The position numbers were made by a program, and so were the translations under genes. Positions 53,313 to 56,300 of a stretch of DNA of 64,000 bases are shown piece after piece. The notes beneath the pieces were generated by a model. It was given only the letters and a program-made list of their open reading frames with translations, did no database searches and was not told the DNA's origin. Origin of the DNA: Parasphingorhabdus flavimaris (lineage in GTDB: Bacteria; Pseudomonadota; Alphaproteobacteria; Sphingomonadales; Sphingomonadaceae); NCBI RefSeq assembly GCF_013371215.1, contig NZ_JABWMH010000003.1, positions 434,001 through 498,000 of the forward strand, given 5' to 3'. Position 1 is the stretch's first letter, and the number at the start of each line of letters is the position of its first letter.

Positions 53313-56300
53313 TCACTTCGCCAGCATGTCTTTCAGATAGCCGCCGGTAAAGCTGGCCTTGACCTTGGCCACTTCTTCCGGCGTGCCTTGCGCGACAATT
53401 TCGCCGCCCCGCACGCCGCCTTCGGGACCGAGGTCGATGATATGGTCGGCGGTCTTGATGACATCGAGATTATGCTCGATCACCACCACGCTATTGCCCT
53501 GCTCGACCAGTTGGTGGAGCACCTCCAGCAACTTCCGAACATCCTCGAAATGCAGGCCCGTTGTCGGCTCGTCGAGAATATAGAGCGTCTGCCCGGTTGA
53601 CCGTTTCGACAGTTCCTTGGCCAGCTTGACCCGCTGGGCCTCGCCGCCCGACAGGGTGGTTGCCTGCTGGCCGACCTTCACATAGCCGAGGCCGACTTCG
53701 TAGAGCATCGCCATCTTGTCGCGGATCGGCGGCACCGCCTTGAAGAAGCTGACCGCATCCTCGACCGTCATGTCGAGAATATCGGCGATCGACTTGCCCT
53801 TGAACTTTACCTCGAGCGTCTCGCGATTATAGCGCTTGCCGTGGCATTCCTCGCAAGTGACATAGACATCCGGCAGGAAGTGCATCTCGATCTTGATCAG
53901 CCCGTCACCGCGGCACACTTCGCAGCGGCCACCCTTGACGTTGAAGCTGAACCGGCCCGGCTTGTAACCGCGCACTTGCGCTTCGGGCAGACCGGCGAAC
54001 CAGTCGCGGATATTGGTGAAGGCGCCGGTATAGGTCGCGGGATTGGAGCGCGGGGTGCGGCCAATCGGGGACTGGTCGATGTCGATGACCTTGTCGCAAT
54101 ATTCCAGGCCGGTGATCTTGTCATGCGCGCCGGCAATCACCCGCGCGCCATTGAGCGTCCGGGCGGCCGAAGCGTAGAGCGTATCGATGGTCAGCGAGCT
54201 TTTGCCCGAGCCCGACAGGCCGGTGATACAGGTGAAGGTCCCGAGCGGGATCGATGCGGTGACATTCTGCAGATTATTGGCGGTCGCACCGTGCACGGTC
54301 AGCTTCTTGCCATTGCCCTTGCGGCGCTTGGCCGGGACCTCGATCTGGCGCGTGCCGTTGAGATAGGCGGCGGTCAGCGATTTTTTCGATTTCAATATCT
54401 GCTTGAGCGTGCCCTCGGCGACGACCTCGCCGCCATGAACGCCGGCACCCGGTCCCATGTCGACAACCCAGTCCGCGGTGCGGATGGCGTCCTCGTCATG
54501 CTCGACCACGATCACCGTATTGCCGAGATCGCGCAGGCGCTTGAGCGTGGTTAGCAAGCGGTCATTGTCGCGCTGGTGCAGGCCGATGCTCGGCTCGTCG
54601 AGCACATAGAGCACGCCGCTCAGGCCCGACCCGATCTGGCTGGCGAGACGAATGCGCTGGCTCTCGCCACCGGAAAGCGTGCCGCTGGTCCGGTCGAGAT
54701 TGAGATAGTCGAGACCGACATTGTTGAGGAAGCCCAGCCGCTCGATGATTTCCTTGAGGATCGGTTCGGCGATCTGGCTCTGGGTCTTGTTGAGCTTGGC
54801 GCCGAGACCTTCGAAAAATGCCAGTGCATCGCCGACGCTGCGCCGGGTGGAGATACTGATGTCCTCGCCGGCAATCTTGACCGCCAGCGCCTCCGGCTTC
54901 AGCCGCGCGCCGTGGCAGGTTTCGCAAGGAGCCGCCGCCTGGAATTTGGCCAGCTCTTCCTGCATCCAGGCGCTCTCGGTCTGCAGCATCCGGCGATTGA
55001 GATTGCCGACGACGCCCTCGAACGGCTTTTTTACTTCATAGGATTTGCGCCCGTCCTGGAAGCGCAGCGTCACCGGCAGGCCCTGGGTGCCGTTGAGGAT
55101 CACGTCGCGATGATGCTCGCTCAATTCATTCCACGGCGTGTCGAGATCAAATTCGAAATGGCGTGCAAGGCTGCCCAGAACCTGCATATAATAAGGCGAG
55201 GGCGGGTTGGACTTGGCCCATGGCACGACCGCGCCCTTCTTGATGCTCAGCGCCGGATTGGGGACGATCAGCTGGGTGTCGAAATGGAGCTTCTCGCCAA
55301 GACCGTCGCAGGACGGGCAGGCGCCTTGTGGTGCGTTGAACGAGAACAGCCGCGGCGCGATTTCCTCGATGGTGAAGCCGCTTACCGGGCAGGCGAAGCG
55401 TTCGGAAAAGACGATCCGGTTTGGCGGGAGGCCGGTGCCTTTCATGCTCCCTTCCCGCTTGAGGGAGGGGCCGGGGGTGGGGATTTCTCGGGTGTCCGGC
55501 TGGCCCACCCCTGGCCCCTCCCGCAAGCGGGAAGGGGAGTTATCCGGTTCCGGCTTGAAATTTGCGCTGGCTTCTGCAACGCCTTCCGTTCGCGCTGAGC
55601 CTGTCGAAGCACCATTGGCAAGCGCTTCCTCAACCGTACCATCCGCCAAATCCACAAAAGCCAGCCCATCCGCCAGCCGGAGCGCGGTCTCGAAACTGTC
55701 GGCCAGCCTTTGCTCCATGCCCTCGCGTACCACGAGACGGTCCACGACCACCTCGATGTCATGCTTGTATTTCTTGTCGAGCTTCGGCGTTTCCTCGATA
55801 TCGTAAAATTCGCCATCGACCCGTACGCGGGTGAAGCCGGCCTTCTGCCACTCGAGCAATTCCTTGCGATACTCGCCCTTGCGGCCACGGACCACGGGCG
55901 CGAGCAGGAAGAATCGGGTCTTCTCGGGCAGGGTCATTACCCGGTCGACCATCTGCGAGACGGTCTGCGCGGTGATCGGCAGGCCGGTTGCGGGGGAATA
56001 AGGCACGCCGGCGCGAGCCCAGAGCAGGCGCATATAGTCGTAAATCTCGGTCACCGTTGCGACGGTCGAGCGCGGGTTGCGGCTGGTGGTCTTCTGTTCG
56101 ATCGAGATCGCCGGTGACAGGCCCTCGATATGCTCGACATCGGGCTTCTGCATCATCTCGAGAAACTGCCGTGCATAGGCCGACAGGCTCTCGACATAGC
56201 GCCGCTGCCCCTCGGCATAGATGGTATCGAACGCAAGGCTCGACTTGCCGCTGCCGGACAGGCCGGTGATCACGATCAGCTTCTCGCGCGGAAGCTCGAT

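Follow-up and report, generated by a model that had tools for sequence, protein, structure and literature searches.

In-frame repeats in uvrA

The DNA analyzed here, a 64,000-nucleotide stretch of the 3.35-Mb genome of Parasphingorhabdus flavimaris (the window), encodes on its minus strand a UvrA protein into which two palindromic repeats are translated. The uvrA reading frame is open over 1015 codons, and residues 4 to 1014 of its product match the NCBIfam UvrA equivalog with 1573.8 bits (cut-off, 1147), confirming the original prediction that the gene remains open throughout. In E. coli, uvrA is dispensable. Sphingorhabdus sp. 109 (locus L074) is a close named relative, with a UvrA identity of 97%. 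The gene and the parts of its loop are as follows.

53313-56360, minus strand: uvrA, the repeat host, an open reading frame of 1015 codons
55647..55673, minus strand: conserved upstream border of the loop, ADGLAFVDL (congener alignment; strand 234-238 in the structural model)
55584..55612, minus strand: family-B repeat, single arm, within residues 251-259 (ASTGSARTE; genome copies and congeners)
55539..55583, minus strand: older non-repeat segment, residues 260-274, matched by a segment of congeners L071 and L073, which lack repeats
55446..55538, minus strand: family-A REPIN-like palindrome, residues 275-305 (inverted repeat, dispersed copies)
55407..55445, minus strand: conserved downstream border, running into strand 315-319 (filled and empty congeners; structural model)

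Palindrome A consists of two 33-nt arms (55449-55481 and 55504-55536), 94% complementary and separated by a 22-nt gap; as RNA it folds with −78.2 kcal/mol (z = −7.6), and none of 200 shuffles was equally stable. The B arm, TTCGCGCTGAGCCTGTCGAAGCAC at 55589-55612, has one match in the window, compared to a mean of 0.00 in 100 shuffles, and the B consensus TTCGNGCTGAGCNTGTCGAAG is located at 55589-55609. Both repeats are translated in frame within the uvrA reading frame. The arms, the fold energy, the shuffles, and the copies elsewhere in the genome (see below) agree that the palindrome and the 26-bp repeat predicted inside uvrA are real. Between the same anchors, the loop measures 80 residues in the window versus 29 in congeners with an empty loop and 48 in L071 and L073. 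Repeat DNA supplies about 40 of the 80 residues (251-259 and 275-305). The original estimate of about 60 extra residues was therefore right about an insertion in the loop but too high for its repeat-derived part, as residues 260-274 belong to the older segment.

Position and structure of the loop

Residues 132-239 of the window UvrA are covered by the solved UvrB-interaction domain of the Geobacillus protein (3fpn). Alignments with full-length UvrA chains break off at residue 239-241 and resume at 315-316. PDB chain 2r6f has approximately 3 residues where the window UvrA has approximately 75. In other Alphaproteobacteria, 23 to 29 residues lie between the anchors at 22/22 readable loci (6 of the 28 loci were unreadable); locus L224, from the window's own family, has 72 residues between those anchors, including a pair of the family-E repeat defined below.

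In an AlphaFold2 model, residues 250-309 have a pLDDT below 50 and are flanked by strands 234-238 and 315-319. Because the model is modest (38 rows; mean pLDDT of 68.3) and values below 50 also occur elsewhere in it (e.g., 89-100, 320-334, and 817-838), it can only suggest that the loop is disordered. With low confidence, the loop may be modeled as a hairpin turn that follows the UvrB-interaction domain and precedes the first zinc region. The insert lies ahead of the first zinc-binding region, as predicted. That region (window positions 55380-55397) reads CPVSG, with Ser replacing the Cys of PDB chain 2r6f; Ser occupies this position at 93/93 readable Sphingomonadales loci (110 looked at) and at 25/25 readable loci from other Alphaproteobacteria (28 looked at).

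Borders and history of the loop in congeners

A UvrA match was found in 30 of 32 genomes of the genus. Of the 30 distinct congener loops, 11 have the empty form of 29 residues (DLADGVVPGREEAETGTKMKGT or variants of it), those of L071 and L073 are longer (48 residues) and repeat free, and the remaining loops contain repeats, the longest reaching 101 residues. A DNA alignment of 16 congener loops was used to subdivide the loop. Residues 260-274 match the segment GVNEASALFKPEPG of L073, and also L071, both of which lack repeats; the original prediction had named the same residues encoded by non-repeat DNA in close relatives as evidence against it, and this was found for residues 260-274 only. A non-repeat segment of the form VxEAxxxF (VNEASALF, VREAPQAF) is found again and again where loops are long, in several genera (window positions 55539-55583, L071, L073, L111, and L129), and is possibly a loop motif of older date that has its own role.

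Palindrome A is missing in congeners L049, L057, L071, and L073. Both B arms are retained in L055, L056, L057, and L049, and the loops of L055 and L056 each contain a complete A pair together with a complete B pair. Since the second arm is still present in these four congeners, the most plausible reading of the lone B arm in the window is that it is what is left of a pair. The 26-bp repeat, proposed as a separate element, is thus dispersed but represents half of an inverted pair of which these congeners keep both arms. The insert points differ: most filled congeners have the insert upstream of VAEASANF, and L052 and L054 have it downstream of this segment. In the L046 loop (genome G019), part of an A arm is locally duplicated (TPDASRKRAPDPSRKREG).

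The same loop across Sphingomonadales

A scan of named genomes yielded 80 loci, which together with the genus gave 110 loops, 103 of them distinct. Five repeat families were defined from the loop DNA and matched allowing a few mismatches.

Family A: CTCCCGC..GCGGGAG
Family B: TTCGACA.GCTCAG
Family C: GAGCG.AGTCGA
Family D: CTCCCCT..AGGGGAG and kin
Family E: CCCAGCG.A.GCTGGG

The motif of at least one family is present in 54 of the 103 distinct loops, and several loops hold two families. Families A and D have a common outer stem, and B and C are partly alike; the families are thus distinct, though perhaps not unrelated. On a UvrA tree that leaves out the loop, the number of state changes is at least 13 for A, 6 for B, 8 for C, 12 for D, and 7 for E, where a change may be a gain or a loss and depends on the motif calls. 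The single-arm calls in L063, L129, and L152 are weak; the E call in L087 was judged to be chance, and this row was reassigned by hand to A ahead of the tree counts.

The same loops were also scored for inverted repeats independently of any motif. A score of ≥12 was obtained for 43 of the 63 loops of ≥46 amino acids versus 0 of the 33 loops of ≤36 amino acids, and the loop scored higher than all control windows from the same gene in 45/63 long and 1/33 short loops (1,847 control windows in total); this test omits four loops of 37 to 45 amino acids, as well as L103, L143, and L153. A direct insertion is visible at L334, where a B pair lies between GVVPG and R of a loop that is empty apart from it, and the corresponding sequence at L323, L328, and L338 reads GVVPGRE. 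In a sample of one genome per genus of the family (39 genomes, 36 of which matched), the best 30 loci comprised 29 new loci and that of the window, and the inverted-repeat score of the uvrA loop was ≥14 in 8 of the 28 readable loops, including that of the window. The two unreadable loops are those of L340 and L341; a palindrome is nonetheless present in L340.

Repeat copies in whole genomes

In the genome containing the window, family B occurs at 70 sites (≤2 mismatches) versus 0 for a reversed control, and the sites sampled resolve into 23 different inverted pairs plus 17 single arms. Family A is found at four paired sites besides uvrA, with additional weak partial matches. The seven arm sites detected with a stricter pattern and the five paired sites, uvrA included, make A a low-copy family in this genome. 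Both repeats are thus dispersed, as predicted, and neither is single copy.

Repeat hits were counted in 36 genomes for families A and B and in 37 for D and E. The controls gave no hits for B and no more than 4 for any other family, so that small E counts are within the control range; the uvrA copies are part of the genome counts, and palindromic families were counted on both strands. The median number of hits per genome was 99 for genomes with a filled loop (n = 23) versus 7 for those with an empty or repeat-free loop (n = 13; Mann-Whitney P = 0.0001). Likewise, each family was commoner in genomes whose loop holds it (P = 0.009 for B, 0.04 for A, 0.02 for D, and 0.004 for E). The exceptions are L142, L144, and L121, where the genome contains repeats and the loop is empty, and L085, where the loop is filled and the genome is repeat poor (7 hits). 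Repeat supply explains much of the filled/empty pattern. Relatives with empty loops, together with families that are abundant in the genome, support the prediction that the UvrA loop grew in frame by means of dispersed palindromic repeats.

In-frame repeats in other genes

Three coding cases were identified in the genome containing the window: both families lie in uvrA, A also in trmD, and B also in a gene for a ligase-associated DNA damage response helicase. In a second genome, that of Erythrobacter sp. EC-HK427 (G037; uvrA locus L088), families A, B, and D make up 52 groups, and the coding cases are uvrA, truB, valS, ileS, glyS, and mutA.

L003:1189-2091, C2 near 625123, plus strand: trmD, A pair in frame (...PPQTPPAGGRG), own genome
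L024:1252-3020, C4 near 117924, plus strand: ligase-associated DEXH box helicase, single B arm in frame at ORF residues 83-91, own genome
L176, L202, L204, L216, and L190: truB, valS, ileS, glyS, and mutA, respectively, of Erythrobacter sp. EC-HK427

These cases were separated from spurious reading frames by codon scores of the flanks and by domain matches. In the genome of the window, the codon score reached 0.15 on either side of the repeat in 2 of 44 B groups, namely, uvrA and L026, the latter of which was rejected as a gene because it has no Pfam match and its opposite strand scores higher. The flanks of the helicase repeat score 0.10 and 0.49, and the gene was retained for its NCBIfam match. 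Most long ORFs that span repeat sites were rejected as genes. Pfam was run on 10 ORFs of this genome; L160 and L037, which do encode Pfam domains, have the repeat at residues 11-34, ahead of the domain, and were not counted. In the Erythrobacter genome, 6/52 groups reached a codon score of 0.1 on the flanks, and of these uvrA, truB, valS, and glyS were retained. ileS and mutA were added for their domain matches despite one flank at 0.08 and −0.05, respectively; L200 and L205 were dropped for lack of a Pfam match, and dapB (L184), with the repeat ahead of its domain, was not counted. The valS gene contains two inserts, the second noted by eye.

Searches of 39 genomes per gene, one per genus, were evaluated for the best 30 loci each. 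The inverted-repeat score of the loop was ≥14 in 8/30 best-matching loci for truB (L253, L254, L259, L275 to L278, and L280) and in 5/30 for valS (L284, L285, L286, L301, and L305). Raw tallies of 12, 13, and 10 of 30 for uvrA, truB, and valS were set aside because they included off-loop motif hits and a wrong ORF (L320). Repeats have also landed recurrently in the truB loop, between VTIHxL and VSKGTYIR (L253 to L282), a second such site with several families in several genera. In valS, the stretch bounded by FCDWY and LHPFMPF showed a clear repeat pair solely in L202. With the truB and valS loops also recurrently filled, uvrA is not the sole target.

Reading frame of the translated repeats

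The 23 B pairs located elsewhere in the genome of the window offer 138 frames, of which 78 are open, and the combination of STxS with E(L/P)VE accounts for 13 of these 78. In the uvrA loops, 14/14 complete B pairs read STxS and E(L/P)VE, in both arm orders, and 21/21 B carriers use STxS; the pair at L334, read by eye, is in the same frame (STGS, EHVE). The B carriers are related, and the 14 pairs correspond to four independent lineages (the window's genus, Novosphingobium, Sphingopyxis, and Sphingomonas ERG5), with L334 as a fifth. Under the 13/78 null, drawn solely from copies in the window's genome, the lineage-level chance is about 8e-4 to 1e-4 for four to five lineages. This combination is also the most disorder-prone of the open ones, with a mean of 0.24 versus 0.02 to 0.22 for the other groups on a disorder scale.

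Outside uvrA, the B pairs in truB and mutA of Erythrobacter sp. EC-HK427 have the same reading, and the single B arm of the helicase gene reads LRQAQHER; the frame bias is therefore not absolute outside uvrA. Within uvrA, a single frame is used by all C arms and a single one by all E arms, save for the L087 E call judged to be chance. By raw count, the frames of D and A are mixed, the commonest accounting for 19/22 D arms and 20/26 A arms. For family B, the frame bias points to selection on the peptide beyond the requirement that the frame stay open.

Relation to REP and REPIN elements

REPIN/RAYT systems comprise many copies of two inverted arms with a short spacer and a Y1 transposase gene. 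The repeats described here resemble them in the inverted arms with a short spacer, in the dozens of B copies, and in the presence of a Y1 transposase gene; the difference is that no link between a transposase and a repeat family was found. As short palindromic or inverted-paired repeats (A arms of 33 nt, 94% complementary, and B pairs) with many dispersed copies (70 sites for B, few for A), they have the general form of REPs. Published REPs have a GTAG or CGTC tag at one foot (PMC3733652); the tetranucleotide CGTC is contained in the TTCGTCC of many B copies, and the uvrA copy is without it. The genome has one intact (L154, C2 near 67825) and one broken Y1_Tnp (RAYT-like) gene, the latter (L155, C4 near 281921) interrupted by two TAG codons. 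No A, B, C, or E repeat, the four families looked for, was present in 3.4 kb around L154 or in the stretch around L155. We therefore call the elements REP-like without claiming a link to a RAYT. As in translated intragenic REPs, the repeats lie in frame in a known gene, and shorter orthologs without the insert occur in the same genus.

DISCUSSION

Taken together, these results are best explained by a tolerant hairpin loop of UvrA that has been repeatedly colonized by the genome's own REP/REPIN-type repeats and filtered by reading frame and by the softness of the peptide, a reading to which we assign a probability of roughly 85%. Short mobile palindromic repeats of the REP/REPIN type would land in a length-tolerant loop from the population present in the same genome. 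The inserts would be translated and retained only if they keep the frame and encode a soft, disorder-prone peptide, and they would later erode by mutation and loss of arms. In the lineage of the window, a B pair probably entered a loop that was already lengthened and an A pair entered behind the FKPEP segment; loss of one B arm would have followed. The mover would presumably be a RAYT-type enzyme acting by transposition, and the insert is presumably neutral for UvrA. Neither polymorphism between strains nor an actual transposition event was observed.

One loop filled by five families in several genera is also what would be expected if the mover preferred a DNA sequence or structure at the uvrA site, i.e., a true hot spot. 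We regard such targeting as quite improbable, given that several insert points are used (before and after VAEASANF and inside GVVPG-R) and that truB, valS, ileS, glyS, trmD, mutA, and the helicase gene also contain repeats. The repeats in truB, valS, and other genes are the reason for preferring a tolerant loop over a uvrA-specific target. Repeat expansion or slippage within uvrA, without insertion of a dispersed element, could account for the local A-arm duplication in L046; the loop sequences, however, belong to families with copies scattered over the same genomes, where controls gave few hits, which makes expansion very hard to sustain as the general origin. A chance open frame or an assembly artifact can for practical purposes be dismissed, since separately assembled congeners (L045, L046/L074, L055, and L056, among others) have the same architecture.

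The insert might instead be selected because it alters nucleotide excision repair, e.g., through a weaker UvrA with a mutator effect, as speculated for repair genes in a survey of translated REPs (PMC3733652). By raw count, the coding cases found in the two genomes are mostly repair and tRNA genes (uvrA twice, the helicase gene, trmD, truB, valS, ileS, glyS, and mutA), and the same tendency is reported in that survey. Against this, the peptides vary by family and lineage, so that they have no sequence-specific function in common, and 11/30 congener loops are empty; selection for altered repair is thus unlikely. A broader possibility, to which we give little credence, is that, across the order, palindromes land in the same few loops of core repair and tRNA proteins and that loop growth tunes these proteins, in the case of UvrA through DNA repair and the mutation rate. 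If so, the repeat population would feed back on the mutation supply of its host.

E. litoralis and S. alaskensis are sphingomonads. REPs are reported in tRNA synthetases and truB in these species by the survey (PMC3733652), in agreement with the truB and valS cases described here. This survey (BMC Genomics, 2013) describes GTAG/CGTC-tagged REPs translated in frame within genes, many of them for replication and repair, and includes the uvrA genes of Thioalkalivibrio and O. terrae among the intragenic hosts; a sphingomonad uvrA could be listed among its supplementary genes. Its REPs and the present repeats are alike in being short, palindromic, and dispersed, in occurring as singles or inverted pairs, and in lying in frame, and flexible loops and possible mutator effects are proposed there as well. 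The kind of phenomenon is therefore already known, uvrA included, and the two elements predicted in the window, although real, are not a one-off: such insertions have been published and also occur in other genes here. The same source describes genes of the same category as hit at different sites, with the exception of recB in two Xanthomonas, whereas here one UvrA loop receives five families, with a frame bias for B. It also describes Rickettsia palindromic elements (RPE) inserted in frame in genes that likely encode functional proteins. By that description, the present insertions resemble RPE as palindromic in-frame insertions but differ in host (Rickettsia, not sphingomonads), and most of the repeat groups sampled here lie outside genes.

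In the literature, which was covered in part, PMC3733652 was the only work found on uvrA with REPs, and nothing was found on sphingomonad palindromes or REPs, on a recurrently filled UvrA loop, or on a frame bias. The pattern of one loop, several families, several lineages, and one frame for B seems to be new. It provides a dense natural series of one enzyme loop, from empty to doubly filled, through which the cost of mobile DNA in a protein and the reading-frame filter become measurable. In sphingomonads, the loop lengths and species-specific peptides of UvrA, TruB, and tRNA synthetases make poor markers of phylogeny or function. The UvrA loop is thus a striking instance of a known, little-studied route of bacterial protein growth.
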